Positions 667 to 29,431 of a DNA stretch of 33,288 nt are shown here, one piece after another; position 1 is the first letter of the stretch; every line of letters begins with the position of its first letter. Location of the stretch: IMG/VR virus record IMGVR_UViG_3300035703_002023, positions 1 to 33,288 of that record; one strand, given 5' to 3'. Both the position numbers and the translations under genes were made by a program. A model generated the notes under the pieces. It saw nothing but the letters and a program-made list of their open reading frames with translations, ran no database searches and was not told the DNA's origin. The DNA comes from a virus.

Positions 667-1104
667 TTAGAGCTTATAAGTTCCCACAGTTTCGCCATCA
701 ACACTATAAAACACCTGAGAAATGCCGCGCTCCTTCATAACCGCATGGCACATACGGCACGGCTTGCTCATGCGATCTTCCTTCTTGCCCTTGCTAGCAC
801 GGGCAACATACATCACTGCGCCTTTAGTCTGTGAACGAGGGACGTTAAGGATCGCCTTAATCTCTGCATGATAAGTAGAAACACCCTTCTCCTCTGGACG
901 ATACTTTGCGCCAATAGAAGAATACTTCTCACTATTAATACCGAAATTAACGATAGCGCCGCCCCGAACGAGCACAGCACCATGACGAAAGTTACCATAA
1001 GTAGAGCACTCGGCCATTTTTTTGGCTAACGAAAGATACCTTCGATTCTTCTTGGAGATCTCACTCTTAGAAATCAGCTGCTCCTGCGGGCCATCGTTAT
1101 CCAT
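667..1104 (-). CDS. dCMP deaminase-like zinc enzyme
   Basis: This is a 145-residue member of the cytidine/deoxycytidylate deaminase superfamily. The zinc site is visible as H79-A-E81 (zinc ligand and catalytic Glu) and P115-C-R-M-C119 (two Cys ligands). In T4-like phages such an enzyme turns dCMP into dUMP for thymidylate synthesis. I chose the ATG at 1104 because GGAGG lies five bases upstream. An ATG at 1137 in the same frame would add 11 residues but places the ribosome site inside the gene. The protein is shorter than T4 dCMP deaminase, and the exact substrate (dCMP, cytidine, or a modified base) cannot be told from motifs. No thymidylate synthase lies in the window. Confidence 0.82.
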   Translation of the reverse strand: MDNDGPQEQLISKSEISKKNRRYLSLAKKMAECSTYGNFRHGAVLVRGGAIVNFGINSEKYSSIGAKYRPEEKGVSTYHAEIKAILNVPRSQTKGAVMYVARASKGKKEDRMSKPCRMCHAVMKERGISQVFYSVDGETVGTYKL

Positions 1105-1158
1105 GCTTTCCTCCAGTTGATAAAAGCATAGTATCACAATGCATTAACTAGCGCAACA

Positions 1159-2325
1159 CTATTCGCATTTGGATTCTAATAATATCATAGATAAATTATT
1201 TAATATTAAACTAGAGCTTTTATCTAAATTAAAACCAGCGCCACCGCTTAAAGCGGCCATAACATTCCAGCGGTGATCAATAACAAATAAGTAAATAGGA
1301 ATATTTAAATCTCTATAATCTTCCGCAAGTTGATTTGGTTCAGTTCGATTCATGTAAAAGTAACGTTGCGGCTCTTCGTCACTAAATATTAAAACTCTTT
1401 TTTCCGATCCTTCTGGGATGTTTAGCAGCAGCGCATCGTTAGGATCTATAATCATTTTTAGCGCATCTAATATGGGCTCTTCTGCAACAGATATATTTAT
1501 TTGCATTTGCCCTAACCTATTGACGAAATTACTAGGATCGCTTATTGGTATCGCTACTCTTGGGTTTGCAAATCGTAAATCTAAAGGGTGCGGGATGGCA
1601 ATAAGAATAAACTTTTGATTTGAATTGCGGTTATTGGTGTTCCAATATACAAAAGCGTCTTTTATCGCATATATGTATTCGGCCATACTGCCAGATAAAT
1701 CTAGGATTACTATATTGTAAACTTCTCTGCCATTAAAACCATTGTCTACAGCGCCATCGCAATCGTTGTCTTTATTGTCGCATAATTCTTTTTGAGGCAA
1801 TATCTGCTTAACGCAAGAACCATATTGACCGTCTATGCATGTTTTTATTCCGGGTCTGCATTCGCCATATAACAAGCTTTGCTGCGAGCCATCGTAACAT
1901 ATCTGTACAGGCACTTTTTCTGGATTATCTGTTATCCCATCGCAGTCATCATCTAATCCATTACACAATTCATCTGTTGGTTTTCTAGCGTTACATTCAC
2001 CCCAAATACCATTTTCGCATATTTGTTCGCCAGCTTCACAAGCAGATGAGCAATTTTTTTTTATGTTATCTGTTTTCCCATCGCAATCGTTGTCTTGATT
2101 GTCACATATTTCTTCAGACGGCGTTACATAATTTACACATACTGGATCTTCCCCGGTTTCTGGATTACAAAAATAAACTCCCGGTTTGCAAACACCAACA
2201 TTCACTGTGTTTGGGTCACCGGGATAACAGGGAAGTCCACAATATTTATAGTCTGTTGTTCTAGATCCAGAGCAATCGCAATTAGTTAATAATGCAATAA
2301 ACAGTAGTCTGAATATTTTTATCAT
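1159..2325 (-). CDS. Putative lipoprotein with three MopE-type Cys/DNDCDG modules and a von Willebrand A domain
   Basis: This 388-residue protein starts with a short hydrophobic signal (about residues 1-15) ending in LLTNC, a plausible but non-standard lipobox with Cys16. Three repeats follow, each with the pattern Gly-x-Cys-x-x-Gly, then Cys, then an acidic loop: DNQDNDCDG (75-83), NGLDDDCDG (122-130) and DNKDNDCDG (183-191). These match the putative metal-binding/MopE copper-binding repeat. From about residue 200 a VWA-like domain begins with YNIVILDLSGSMAE, where D209-x-S211-x-S213 forms a MIDAS metal site. Such combinations are typical of surface proteins of Myxococcota and relatives; I do not know one in a T4-like phage. 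It has its own 91-base leader and is not overlapped by neighbours. A role in lysogenic-type surface modification, superinfection exclusion or adsorption is only a guess. Confidence 0.75.
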   Translation of the reverse strand: MIKIFRLLFIALLTNCDCSGSRTTDYKYCGLPCYPGDPNTVNVGVCKPGVYFCNPETGEDPVCVNYVTPSEEICDNQDNDCDGKTDNIKKNCSSACEAGEQICENGIWGECNARKPTDELCNGLDDDCDGITDNPEKVPVQICYDGSQQSLLYGECRPGIKTCIDGQYGSCVKQILPQKELCDNKDNDCDGAVDNGFNGREVYNIVILDLSGSMAEYIYAIKDAFVYWNTNNRNSNQKFILIAIPHPLDLRFANPRVAIPISDPSNFVNRLGQMQINISVAEEPILDALKMIIDPNDALLLNIPEGSEKRVLIFSDEEPQRYFYMNRTEPNQLAEDYRDLNIPIYLFVIDHRWNVMAALSGGAGFNLDKSSSLILNNLSMILLESKCE

Positions 2326-2416
2326 ATTTTATTTTCTCATGTTGTTATTATTTCTCCTTTCTCCATCTATTACTAATTAGTAGTTTGTAATGAAAAAACG
2401 CTTACCGTTCCGAATA

Positions 2417-3346
2417 TCAATTTAAGATATTAAAATCATTACGCATTTGTATCAAAGCAATGTTTTTTAACTTTGCTTCAACATCTACATCAATTATATT
2501 GTCGCGCATAGCTTGTAATTGATGTTCTGGGATATACCGAATCATTTCGGAGTGCGCTCGCTTTTGATTGTATGCCGCGTTTTCCATGCCGATTTCAGTA
2601 TTTGAAATATGTTGGAGGGGTTTAATTTTACCCCAAGTAACGAGAGTCTGATGAAAAGCATCAGCAAAATCAAGATCGTCCATACCAAAAGTATAGTGAT
2701 GACTATCGAGAACAATAGGAATCCCAGTGCGTTCGCTAATAGCAAGAAGCTGCTTGACATTGTAGCATTTCTCGTCGTTCTCAAGTGTCAGTCGTGATTT
2801 TACATTCTCTGGTAAATAGTTGTAAGTTTCAATAAGCTTCTCGGCACGATTTCCTTTGCCGCCGTGAATGTTGATAGCATAAAACGGAGTGCGATCAAAA
2901 CCCATAGCATCAAAAAGATAGGCATGGTACTCAAGCTCGCGGATGCTGTTTTCGATTACCGATTGCTTGTCACTTGATATGACACAGAACTGGCCGGGAT
3001 GGCATGTGACACGGATGCCGTGTTCGCGGAACCCTCTGCCAGCAGCCGCGAGGTCTTGCTGAATAAGTGCATCGCCTCTTGCAATGTCTCCACAGAATTC
3101 AAAAAGCGGGAATATTGTGCTTGAAATTCTGAAAGATTTGATGTTCTCTCTAACGAGAAAAGGAATTGTTCGCAGGATTTCTTTGACATTGTGACGATAA
3201 GTTTCAAGAATTCGTTCTGTAGAGTATTTTCCATTTTTGTAAGCTCCAAGCTGTAACAGCTTTTCATCAATAACATTCTCGTAAACAACGCTACCATCGC
3301 GCTTAACACGCGGTTCTAAAAATTGACACATCAACCCAAGGGCCAT
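2417..3346 (-). CDS. uvsE: UV-damage endonuclease (UvdE/UvsE family)
   Basis: This 309-residue TIM-barrel repair nuclease nicks DNA 5' to UV photoproducts and some other lesions. Family blocks are clear: LGLMCQFLEPR at the N-terminus, RISSTIFP (73-80), HPGQF (116-120), INIHGGKG (158-165), LENDE (188-192), VLDSHH (212-217) and HISNTE. Candidate metal ligands are H116, H161, E189, D214 and H217. The ATG at 3346 follows AAGGA at proper spacing and lies 14 bases after the previous stop. An upstream ATG at 3376 would overlap that gene. It is the last gene of the nine-gene small-protein operon plus repair enzyme (5583 to 2417). T4 instead uses the unrelated DenV glycosylase, so this is a functional replacement. 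Confidence 0.93.
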   Translation of the reverse strand: MALGLMCQFLEPRVKRDGSVVYENVIDEKLLQLGAYKNGKYSTERILETYRHNVKEILRTIPFLVRENIKSFRISSTIFPLFEFCGDIARGDALIQQDLAAAGRGFREHGIRVTCHPGQFCVISSDKQSVIENSIRELEYHAYLFDAMGFDRTPFYAINIHGGKGNRAEKLIETYNYLPENVKSRLTLENDEKCYNVKQLLAISERTGIPIVLDSHHYTFGMDDLDFADAFHQTLVTWGKIKPLQHISNTEIGMENAAYNQKRAHSEMIRYIPEHQLQAMRDNIIDVDVEAKLKNIALIQMRNDFNILN

Positions 3347-3360
3347 TTTTAATCCTTTTG

Positions 3361-3624
3361 TTAGATATAACTCCAAGTAGCGTTTGGATGACCTGCTAAA
3401 AACTTACGAATTTTTTCTTGGTGTTCAAGGATTTCTTCTTTATCTGCTTTTGATAAAGTTTTTCTACCATCTTTGCGCCAGACCTTTAGCCACTCAATAT
3501 AAAGTTCAAAGATTTTATCTTTGGTTTTGCCTTCAAGGATACGCATAGTGTCGTTAGTTGGAGTTTGATAAAGCCTGCACTCGCATGCAGAAACATCGTC
3601 ATTGAGAGTTAGATTCAGACTCAT
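3361..3624 (-). CDS. Hypothetical protein, 87 aa
   Basis: I do not recognise this protein. It is mainly charged and helical in its second half (residues 30-75), with two Cys close together near the N-terminus (SACECRLY). Its start overlaps the stop of the preceding gene as ATGA, which indicates translational coupling, and it ends 14 bases before the UV endonuclease start. Its reality rests on this packing and the absence of a competing frame. Confidence 0.6.
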   Translation of the reverse strand: MSLNLTLNDDVSACECRLYQTPTNDTMRILEGKTKDKIFELYIEWLKVWRKDGRKTLSKADKEEILEHQEKIRKFLAGHPNATWSYI

Positions 3625-4668: not shown

Positions 4669-5173
4669 TGTTTTCTTCCTGCTCTTTTACAAATTCTTCC
4701 CATTCTTCTTCTCCTTCAAATCGTTTGTAACGCTCCTCAAATTCTGGATCGCCATACTCATACTTATTATAATCAACTACTCCATTAAAAGCTTCGTGTT
4801 CCCCACAGTGTAGCCAACCTTCGTCTTCAAACTCCATTGTAAATTCTAAATGTGGATACTTTTCAGCTACTAGCTTAAACCATCCATATGGTTCGTCCCA
4901 AGCAGTATAAAATCTATAATGTAGGTAATGGCGAACAAAAGTTTCATCATCTTCGTCTGGAACGCTATAAAAATCATGCTCGCTATCGCAAGCATTCCAT
5001 TTTGTTCCCCACTGGCCTACATGCCAGCTACTTTTATTTTCACCTTCTGGTACGGGCGGTGTGGCTTTAAAAAAATCAAGCGCCCGATCTTCGCCTTTAT
5101 TTTCTTCATAAAAAGCTTGCAGCTCTTCTTGTTTCCCATAGAGTCGTAGGTTACAATATGTGTGATTAGCCAT
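4661..5173 (-). CDS. Api92-like ferredoxin-fold protein (DUF1281 type), 170 aa
   Basis: The protein begins MANHTYCNLRLYGK and carries HVGQWGTKWNACD, a run of aromatic and acidic residues including YTAWDEPYGWF, and LEFTMEFEDEGW. This is the pattern I know from Api92/YubB-like proteins of phages and plasmids, small ferredoxin-like folds of unknown function. The ATG at 5173 follows GAGGAG at seven bases; a further upstream ATG at 5188 would include that site. The C-terminus is strongly acidic. It overlaps both adjacent genes by eight bases. Confidence 0.68.
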   Translation of the reverse strand: MANHTYCNLRLYGKQEELQAFYEENKGEDRALDFFKATPPVPEGENKSSWHVGQWGTKWNACDSEHDFYSVPDEDDETFVRHYLHYRFYTAWDEPYGWFKLVAEKYPHLEFTMEFEDEGWLHCGEHEAFNGVVDYNKYEYGDPEFEERYKRFEGEEEWEEFVKEQEENND

Positions 5174-5366
5174 TGACAATCTCCTCAACGATAGAAGTAT
5201 CTTTGCATTTATCCCAGTTGCCTGATCGCTTTAGATAATCTTTACCGCCATCTACAGCGATGTTACCGCATTTGCAGAATTTAAAGTCGTGACGATGTAC
5301 GGATTCAATTTCTTCCATGCACACAAGGCACTTAACACTGTTGCGAATAATCTTTTCACGCTTCAT
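5166..5366 (-). CDS. Small zinc-finger-like phage protein, 66 aa
   Basis: The core reads VKCLVCMEEIESVHRHDFKF then CKCGNIAVDGGKDYL. Two CxxC/CxC pairs around a HRHDF block suggest one zinc ion. The CxC-G-x-x-A-V-D-G-G-x-x-Y-L block is familiar to me from many short phage proteins (I believe the DUF7695 group), function unknown. I chose the ATG at 5366 because GGAGG lies six bases before it. It overlaps the upstream gene by 11 bases and the downstream one by eight. Confidence 0.65.
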   Translation of the reverse strand: MKREKIIRNSVKCLVCMEEIESVHRHDFKFCKCGNIAVDGGKDYLKRSGNWDKCKDTSIVEEIVNG

Positions 5367-5583
5367 CGGCAGCCTCCAGATCATACTTTACACTATCTAG
5401 CGCGGCTTGTCTAGCCTCTTCTATTGAGTCAGATTCGCCTTTCTCCTCAACTTTGACATGCCACCAGTATTTACCGCTATCTAGCGGTCCACCAATGATA
5501 ATTTTAATTGGTCCGTTGTCACCAATCATTTTAATTTTTTTAGCGTATTCAAGATTAATCGTAGACCATTCAAGTTTAGCCAT
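5356..5583 (-). CDS. Hypothetical protein, 75 aa
   Basis: This is the first gene of the small-gene operon, starting seven bases after the HNH gene stop with AGGA upstream. The sequence looks like a small alpha/beta fold: GPIKIIIGGP, then KYWWHVKVEEKG, then an acidic helix with EEARQAALDSVKYDLEAADEA. I do not recognise a family. Confidence 0.55.
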   Translation of the reverse strand: MAKLEWSTINLEYAKKIKMIGDNGPIKIIIGGPLDSGKYWWHVKVEEKGESDSIEEARQAALDSVKYDLEAADEA

Positions 5584-27610: not shown

Positions 27611-29431
27611 TTAGCCGAGTAGATCTTGTACGATGCAGAGGCCGTACATGTCTGGGCGAACCATCGCCTTACCATAACGGGTCATAACGGCCTTGCGTGG
27701 TGTGAAGGTGTCAGGATCGAAGATGGTTGGTGTGGTTTGTAGTGGAACGTATGGAGCGTAAACATAGCCGCTTTCGAGGAATGAAGCGCCCTTACGACCA
27801 ACGAGGATTACGTTACGTGGGAAGTATGGGTCAACGATTACGTCGAATTTAGCGTTTAGTGCGCCAACTTTAACTGCACCTGTTGAGCCTTTTTCGCTGT
27901 CGTGTGTAACGGTAGCGCGGAAACCAGCGGTGAATTCAAGGATGTTCGCAACTTCTGGTGAAACAACGACGAAGTTAGCGCCACCGCGTAGTGTCTTACG
28001 GTGGATGTTAGCTGAAACGTCATTGATTGTTTCGATGAGGGTTTCATACCACATTGAAACGTTACCAGTGAAGTCAGGAGGAGCAGCGTAGTTGCCAGCG
28101 CCTAGATCAACACCAGTGTTGCGGTTTACGAACTTGCCGGGACGACGTGACCAGTACTTAACACCGCCTGTTGCGCCCTTGACTAGATCGTTTAGAATTT
28201 CTTGATCAATTTCAAGACCGATTTGTTCTGAAAGAATTGAGGTTAGCTCAACTTCAGCGTCGAGGTTGTGGTAAGCGTTTAGATCTTGGCCGAGTTCTGG
28301 GGTCCAAGCTGCCTTGAGCTTGCGGGTACGAGCTGAAATATTGAAGCTGTCAACCTTAAGTTGGATTTCTTTTAGGTCGGCGCTGTTTTCTAGTGACCAA
28401 GGAGCAATACCTGCGAGTGAGCCAAGTACGCTGTTACCCATGCTGTCGGTTACGCCAGTGAGCTTGTCCTTGATTGGAACTTCAACAACTAGTGAAGCTA
28501 CTGAACCAGTGGCAAAATCATCGCCAGCTGCGAATGAGACTGATGATGTGTGGAGGAATACCATTTCAACGTACTTGGTACCAAGAGTGTCGGCAGCAGC
28601 GTAAACGCCAGCGCCTTCGACAACTTTGGTTAGGCGACGAACTGGTACAGCAAGTAGACCAGCTGCTGAAGCTAGCGAAGCAACTGATGAACCACTGCCA
28701 GCTGTAGCTGAGCCTGAAGCGATTGAGATTGAGGTTAGATCTTGTTCAGCAATTAATGCACCAGCGGTGGTTAGTGCTGAAACTGGGAAACGAACAACAA
28801 CTGCCTTCTTGCTGGTTTCTGCAAGAAGATCTGGGTCTTCGCGAAGAAGAACTTTTTCTACGTCAGTTGGTGACGCAAGGTTAGCTGAAGCAGTGATTGC
28901 AACTACGCTTGTACCTGCAACTGTTTCGGCATAACGGGCAGTACCGTAACCGCTGGTTAGAGCGAAGAAGCCTTTTTCAGCGTAATCGTTACCGTCTACG
29001 CGAACGCCTTTACGAATTTCTTCACCAACGCGATCACCGAAGAGTGATTCGTTTTGTGAGATAACTTTATCGTTAGCAAGACCGAGATCATTACCGTGGC
29101 GGAAGTCCATGAAGAATACTAGACCGCTTGGTAGTGACATTGGTTGTACTGAAACTAGATCGTTGGCGATAAGGCCAGCGAATACGCGGCGAACGATTGG
29201 GAATGCCACAGCAGCAAAACCTTGTACGTCGCCACCTGACATGGTGTTAGCTTCGCGGAGTAGTTCTTTGGCTTGGTTCTCTAGTAGAACCGCCATTGAA
29301 CCACGTTGGTATTCGTCTTGGATACCTTCGAGTAGACCGCTGTTTTCCCATTTTTGAACTAGTGCTACGCTTTCCTTGCGCTTGTCTTGAAATACTGTGC
29401 CTTCTGTGAGGCGTTCTAGAATATTAGCCAT
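27611..29431 (-). CDS. 23: Major capsid protein precursor (gp23)
   Basis: This 606-residue protein is the T4 gp23-type HK97-fold capsid subunit. The region FAAVAFPIVRRVFAGLIAND then LVSVQPMSLPSGLVFFMDFR aligns with the first conserved block of mature gp23 (MGMVRR-x-I-P-x-LIA-x-D then VQPM). Just before it, ELLRE60-A61 fits the gp21 rule (Leu/Ile-x-Glu, then Ala/Gly/Ser), so the mature chain should start at Ala61, close to T4's cut after Glu65. Another matching site is LTE10-G11. The C-terminal half has FVVVSPEVANILEF, KFDVIVDPYFPRNVILVGRK and PDMYGLCIVQDLLG. T4 gp23 has 521 residues, so surface insertions are likely. Codon use looks more G+C-rich than in neighbours, as expected for a highly expressed gene. 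Confidence 0.95.
   Translation of the reverse strand: MANILERLTEGTVFQDKRKESVALVQKWENSGLLEGIQDEYQRGSMAVLLENQAKELLREANTMSGGDVQGFAAVAFPIVRRVFAGLIANDLVSVQPMSLPSGLVFFMDFRHGNDLGLANDKVISQNESLFGDRVGEEIRKGVRVDGNDYAEKGFFALTSGYGTARYAETVAGTSVVAITASANLASPTDVEKVLLREDPDLLAETSKKAVVVRFPVSALTTAGALIAEQDLTSISIASGSATAGSGSSVASLASAAGLLAVPVRRLTKVVEGAGVYAAADTLGTKYVEMVFLHTSSVSFAAGDDFATGSVASLVVEVPIKDKLTGVTDSMGNSVLGSLAGIAPWSLENSADLKEIQLKVDSFNISARTRKLKAAWTPELGQDLNAYHNLDAEVELTSILSEQIGLEIDQEILNDLVKGATGGVKYWSRRPGKFVNRNTGVDLGAGNYAAPPDFTGNVSMWYETLIETINDVSANIHRKTLRGGANFVVVSPEVANILEFTAGFRATVTHDSEKGSTGAVKVGALNAKFDVIVDPYFPRNVILVGRKGASFLESGYVYAPYVPLQTTPTIFDPDTFTPRKAVMTRYGKAMVRPDMYGLCIVQDLLG

Follow-up and report, generated by a model that had tools for sequence, protein, structure and literature searches.

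What would a T4-like phage do with a gene that reads as a bacterial surface adhesin? The window, meaning the whole stretch of DNA analyzed here, corresponds to a single metagenomic contig of 33,288 bases recorded as a virus in IMG/VR. Its gp23, tail sheath, UvsX-like recombinase, and gp32 mark it as a fragment of a T4-like phage. On its minus strand lies an open reading frame of 388 aa, exactly where the original prediction had placed it. That prediction read the product as a lipoprotein that joins MopE repeats to a von Willebrand A (VWA) domain, and regarded it as a possible acquisition from the host. The gene and its parts are laid out as follows.

1159..2325, minus strand: MopE–VWA predicted lipoprotein gene, ATG start, 388 aa (open reading frame, Pfam, and viral family)
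2329..2359, minus strand: leader of the MopE–VWA gene, with AAGGAG at 2359-2354 and a mini-ORF at 2340-2329 (read from the sequence)
2281..2325, minus strand: signal peptide, residues 1-15, MIKIFRLLFIALLTN (helix 2-14 in the model; present in 52/55 members)
2278..2280, minus strand: Cys16, predicted to be lipid-modified (LLTN-C, with an atypical Asn at -1 and Asp at +2)
2068..2106, minus strand: MopE repeat loop 1, residues 74-86, CDNQDNDCDGKTD (Pfam and motif pattern)
1927..1965, minus strand: MopE repeat loop 2, residues 121-133, CNGLDDDCDGITD (Pfam and motif pattern)
1744..1782, minus strand: MopE repeat loop 3, residues 182-194, CDNKDNDCDGAVD (Pfam and motif pattern)
1162..1731, minus strand: VWA (integrin-β-like) domain, residues 199-388, with the invariant C-terminal Cys387 (alignment, profiles, model, and Foldseek)
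1687..1701, minus strand: MIDAS motif DLSGS, residues 209-213 (Asp209, Ser211, and Ser213 invariant in 36 members)

In the leader, AAGGAG sits 13 nt 5′ of a three-codon mini-ORF, ATG-AGA-AAA-TAA (ATGAGAAAATAA), which is in frame with the MopE–VWA gene and stops 3 nt short of its ATG; it is possibly a start-stop leader or a re-initiation element.

The protein proved to belong to a sizable viral family. Scanning viral contigs with the single protein returned six relatives, and an alignment-based scan returned 311 related stretches. The best 80 of these 311, together with the earlier finds, were collapsed at 90% identity to 55 sequences, nearly all of which have a signal peptide, a predicted lipid Cys, MopE repeats, and a VWA domain. 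By a simple pattern count, these members carry 2–8 repeats; a DxSGS-type motif and a Cys near the C-terminus are present in almost every one. Two family genes (783 and 418 aa) stand in tandem at L171:7462-11071, and at L113:9965-11233 the family ORF runs on into a downstream DUF7695-like gene in a frameshift- or fusion-like manner. Of 50 records, 14 contained T4-like gp23; among those of at least 120 kb, the share was 10 of 14. Because many of the viral records are incomplete, absence from short contigs carries little weight. The contigs of L120 and L121, about 51 kb each, resemble other phages, and the family probably crosses phage types. Searches of named collections were negative: three family members used as queries had no match among 50,697 phage records, the window protein matched nothing in PHROGs or NCBIfam, with PHROGs offering no confident family, and plasmids compared with P0002 gave just MopE-related proteins of Sandaracinus. 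Nothing relevant to the combination of phage, VWA, and MopE was found in full-text literature, where the Myxococcota matches dealt with contractile injection systems and with the tips of Tad pili. This is a previously unlisted family present in many uncultured aquatic phages.

The three Cys-rich modules with DNDCDG-type loops that had been read from the sequence are real. PF11617 matched the window protein in three stretches (36.3 bits against a cut-off of 27, E = 6e-9), and all 36 aligned family members matched it at E ≤ 0.1. In composition-preserving shuffles of the protein, even one loop motif arose in just 1 of 20,000, so the pattern is not due to chance. The protein contains 22 Cys residues. 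Loops of the form DxDxDGxxD resemble Ca2+ sites, and Ca2+ is more likely than copper to be the metal that these would hold. The copper site of MopE from Methylococcus capsulatus, the namesake of the Pfam family (Cu-binding_MopE), is built from His132, His203, and a kynurenine derived from Trp130 (PMC3423442), and these ligands have no counterpart in the window protein. Residues 16-200 contain no His and a single Trp, and copper binding was rejected as a candidate on this basis; the suggestion that copper might mediate ligand binding is accordingly unlikely. Cys-rich DxDCDG repeats are common to the phage protein and to PF11617 proteins of Myxococcota, whereas in the phage protein they stand before a VWA domain, on a predicted lipoprotein.

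The VWA domain gave no Pfam match in the window protein alone but was recognized at the level of the family, with PF00092 matched by 33 of the 36 aligned members and the integrin-β VWA model by five. A VWA-only profile also matched integrin α and β chains at the sequence level. AlphaFold2, given the 36 relatives, produced a model with pLDDT 88 and pTM 0.57, in which the domains are reliable individually and their mutual placement is not. Integrin-β headpieces were the top Foldseek matches in the PDB (E = 8e-9, ~13% identity), and the best match in a viral structure library was an unnamed viral protein (E = 1e-19). The DLSGS motif was found at residues 209-213, as had been proposed, and the residues invariant among the 36 members are D209, S211, S213, E283, D287, D316, E317, and C387. 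A family-level profile, a Rossmann-type fold, and intact MIDAS residues together identify a VWA domain, and the MIDAS is predicted to form a metal-dependent ligand site. Fold, DxSxS MIDAS, and the downstream invariant Glu and Asp are all as in the integrin-β I-like domain (PF00092, PF00362), and the E-x3-D-A spacing presumably recalls integrin β as well. Unlike integrins, the phage protein is a predicted lipoprotein at ~13% identity in which no hybrid or PSI domain is seen, and no partner of the α-chain kind is known for it.

The N-terminal hydrophobic helix of the window protein ends at LLTN-C16. The Asn at -1 is atypical, relatives having mostly S, A, or G there; however, 52 of the 55 non-redundant members (themselves drawn from the best 80 of 311 stretches plus earlier finds) have a lipobox-like Cys, and since this Cys is family-wide we infer that the window protein is lipid-anchored. 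The lipoprotein signal originally proposed is thus likely at the level of the family, and the window lipobox is an irregular example of it. By the E. coli rule, Asp at +2 leads to inner-membrane retention. Across the 55 members, residues +2 to +4 after the lipobox Cys gave 50 acidic and no basic. An acidic patch at +2 to +4 drives surface export of Bacteroidota lipoproteins (PMC5080379), a rule that may not be that of these phages' hosts. The N-terminus also bears on the idea that the protein decorates the virion and aids host binding. Its VWA adhesion fold would suit such a role, but nearly all members have a signal peptide and a predicted lipid Cys and there is no consistent structural-gene neighborhood, and we regard a virion adhesin as very unlikely. 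Homologues were also not found mainly as tail fibers in unrelated phages.

We then turned to the place of the gene within T4-like genomes, for which the following further features of the window are needed.

667..1137, minus strand: downstream neighbor, deoxycytidylate deaminase (PF00383)
2417..3376, minus strand: upstream neighbor, UvdE-type UV endonuclease (PF03851)
5166-5384, minus strand: DUF7695-like zinc-ribbon gene, apart from the MopE–VWA gene in the window
27611..29431, minus strand: T4-like major capsid protein gp23 (PF07068, E = 3e-74)

The gene had been called unexpected in a T4-like genome, a description that does not hold, as it recurs in T4-like contigs; a check of related phages turned up homologues in T4-like relatives, among them G012, which shares 62% gp23 identity with the window. 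The order gp32–UvsX–UvdE–dCMP deaminase–exonuclease is the same in both. In G012, the MopE–VWA homologue lies ~8.8 kb further along, immediately before a DUF7695-like gene, whereas in the window the gene stands between UvdE and the deaminase, with the DUF7695-like gene elsewhere. These different sites indicate that the gene moves within the lineage. The DUF7695-like gene adjoins the MopE–VWA gene in G012 and its relatives. In the window, the flanking genes belong to nucleotide metabolism and repair, and no envelope gene is adjacent. Because the window is one metagenomic contig, a chimeric assembly of bacterial and phage sequence was weighed; this has a negligible chance of being correct, given that the flanking genes are collinear with those of G012, that dozens of independent viral contigs contain homologues, and that the gene GC matches the window. 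That GC, 36.8% against 37.9% for the window, also argues against a fresh import from a GC-rich host.

Where the architecture came from, and whether it points to a host, was examined in samples of one genome per species. MopE repeats were found in 145 of 195 Myxococcota genomes. For two other phyla the counts were 19 of 198 (the phylum to which a Desulfobacterales MAG belongs) and 21 of 287 (that of a Patescibacteria MAG). In the best 80 cellular loci of the genome scan, MopE repeats were never joined to this VWA. A full-length homologue of 409 aa was present in one Myxococcota MAG (G194:C516, E = 3.7e-79 to the viral profile), which shares the signal and Cys, three MopE repeats, VWA, and C-terminal Cys of the phage protein. 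It differs in being a cellular gene beside a purL-like gene and is about 31-37% identical to viral members, the nearest viral clade being L118/L138/L120 at 34–37%. Its 17-kb contig also carries acyl-CoA synthetase-like and DnaK-like genes, and such neighbors, identified by reading, argue for a chromosomal rather than a phage contig. In another Myxococcota genome, G187, numerous MopE repeats precede a partial match to VWA. The full architecture is therefore present in at least 1 of the 195 Myxococcota genomes, a minimum, since scoring covered only the top candidates in each genome. The tree gives the G194 homologue no firm position inside or outside the viral family, and both directions of transfer are compatible with it.

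The claim that the architecture is typical of Myxococcota is thus borne out for the repeats, and the full combination was found in one of the sampled genomes. Derivation from a host is plausible for the architecture as such; capture from the present host gains no support from the GC, from the nearest homologues at about 34% identity, or from the tree. With native GC, such divergence, wide viral spread, and a tree without direction, the gene is a poor pointer to the host group it was thought to reveal. The isolate phages with related capsids infect Flavobacterium, Microcystis, and Rhodothermus, all at <50% identity, and no tRNA genes were found in the window. Judged from composition, identity, and distribution, the gene has a native composition, is old, and occurs in a range of different phages, and the family as a whole appears old, mobile, and common to several kinds of uncultured phages. 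The protein could also be a phage-borne version of a host-type surface adhesin, through which the infected cell would change its aggregation, gliding, predation, or attachment. In favor of this are the characteristic association of MopE repeats with Myxococcota and the full-length homologue in one MAG, but that architecture occurs in just 1 of 195 sampled genomes (a lower bound), viral and cellular sequences are far diverged, and the window phage has no assigned host; such an auxiliary behavior gene seems unlikely.

Gene contexts across the family, compared with mechanically called ORFs, have the cell envelope as their common denominator. In the largest clade, a partner gene of 151–163 aa precedes the MopE–VWA gene in 23 loci. 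The MopE–VWA gene was directly downstream in all 14 loci fetched by means of the partner, which represent one clade, and in L169 the two genes overlap by 4 nt. The partner protein has one N-terminal TM helix and a β-rich domain, for which a fold search gave no confident match (best E = 0.04); at L169:9366-9836 (156 aa) and in its relatives L302-L315, this TM-anchored, β-rich protein is likewise without a confident database match. A trypsin-like lipoprotein protease (PF13365) lies close to the family gene in 24 loci, namely L137:8143-9033 and 23 others, in varying orientations. Two conserved unannotated genes of about 260-280 and 270-300 aa, without a Pfam match (L100:7878-9555; L006:11533-13054), occur in the vicinity of the family gene in eight loci, frequently accompanied by thyX and a DNA polymerase III alpha-like gene. 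A phage GroEL-like gene is nearby in L164 and five further loci and could aid host placement.

Some of these contexts involve lysis genes. In L006, an SLT endolysin is followed by an Rz-like spanin (phrog_9841, E = 2e-4) and then by the MopE–VWA lipoprotein, so the family gene occupies the usual slot of an o-spanin (lambda Rz1-like), as it does in near copies of L006. A late-acting protein that replaces or assists the outer-membrane spanin, and that helps to break up the envelope by tethering peptidoglycan or an inner-membrane partner to the outer membrane, would fit this slot and the TM-anchored coupled partner of the main clade. Endolysin-like genes of four types lay within 2 kb in 8 of the 15 loci showing one, but by permutation 5.3 were expected (P = 0.11), and we claim no lysis role for this reason. 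Moreover, the SLT gene is distant in most large contigs, no lysis gene adjoins in the window or G012, and the partner domain is β-rich rather than a coiled coil. The protein is also far above spanin size, being multidomain with 388 aa and up to about 763-783 aa in other members, and the slot is not general. A lysis accessory is, in our estimate, quite improbable.

The envelope contexts, and the combination of a MIDAS head with a stalk predicted to be lipid-anchored, lead us to favor an adhesin acting at the surface or envelope. The signal peptide and Cys16 would anchor the protein in the envelope of the infected cell. A stalk would be formed by the disulfide-rich MopE repeats, about 180 residues whose DxDxDGxxD loops are probably stabilized by Ca2+, and a head by the C-terminal integrin-β-type VWA, with its MIDAS as a metal-dependent ligand site. 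Expression during infection would then display the protein on or near the outer membrane, where the head would bind an envelope or surface ligand, and the likeliest effect would be a surface blocked or altered for competing phages, through superinfection exclusion or receptor masking. As a whole, this reading, a secreted, cation-dependent, adhesin-like envelope lipoprotein for exclusion or surface alteration, is the best explanation at a probability of roughly 0.4. The non-envelope neighbors in the window, the Asn at -1 of the lipobox, and the Asp at +2 count against it. We know of no relative of the protein that has been studied. Llp of phage T5 provides a precedent for a phage lipoprotein that excludes superinfection, by another route (PMC9586334). 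It too is a phage-encoded envelope lipoprotein (PMC9586334), and the resemblance is of possible role only: Llp is small, periplasmic, and without adhesion domains, whereas the MopE–VWA protein is multidomain and adhesin-like.

An integrin-like MIDAS lipoprotein, without a confident PHROG or NCBIfam family or an isolate counterpart in the collections searched, would represent an undescribed phage action on the exterior of the infected cell, and its distribution indicates that a Myxococcota-type surface architecture circulates in viruses. A broader and rather speculative possibility is that a surface receptor of integrin-like type is encoded by many marine and freshwater phages, forms an obligate envelope pair with the TM partner in one clade, and remodels the infected-cell surface as an exclusion or surface-capture class distinct from known exclusion lipoproteins. 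If exclusion is indeed its function, the family would constitute a multidomain, cation-dependent exclusion system.
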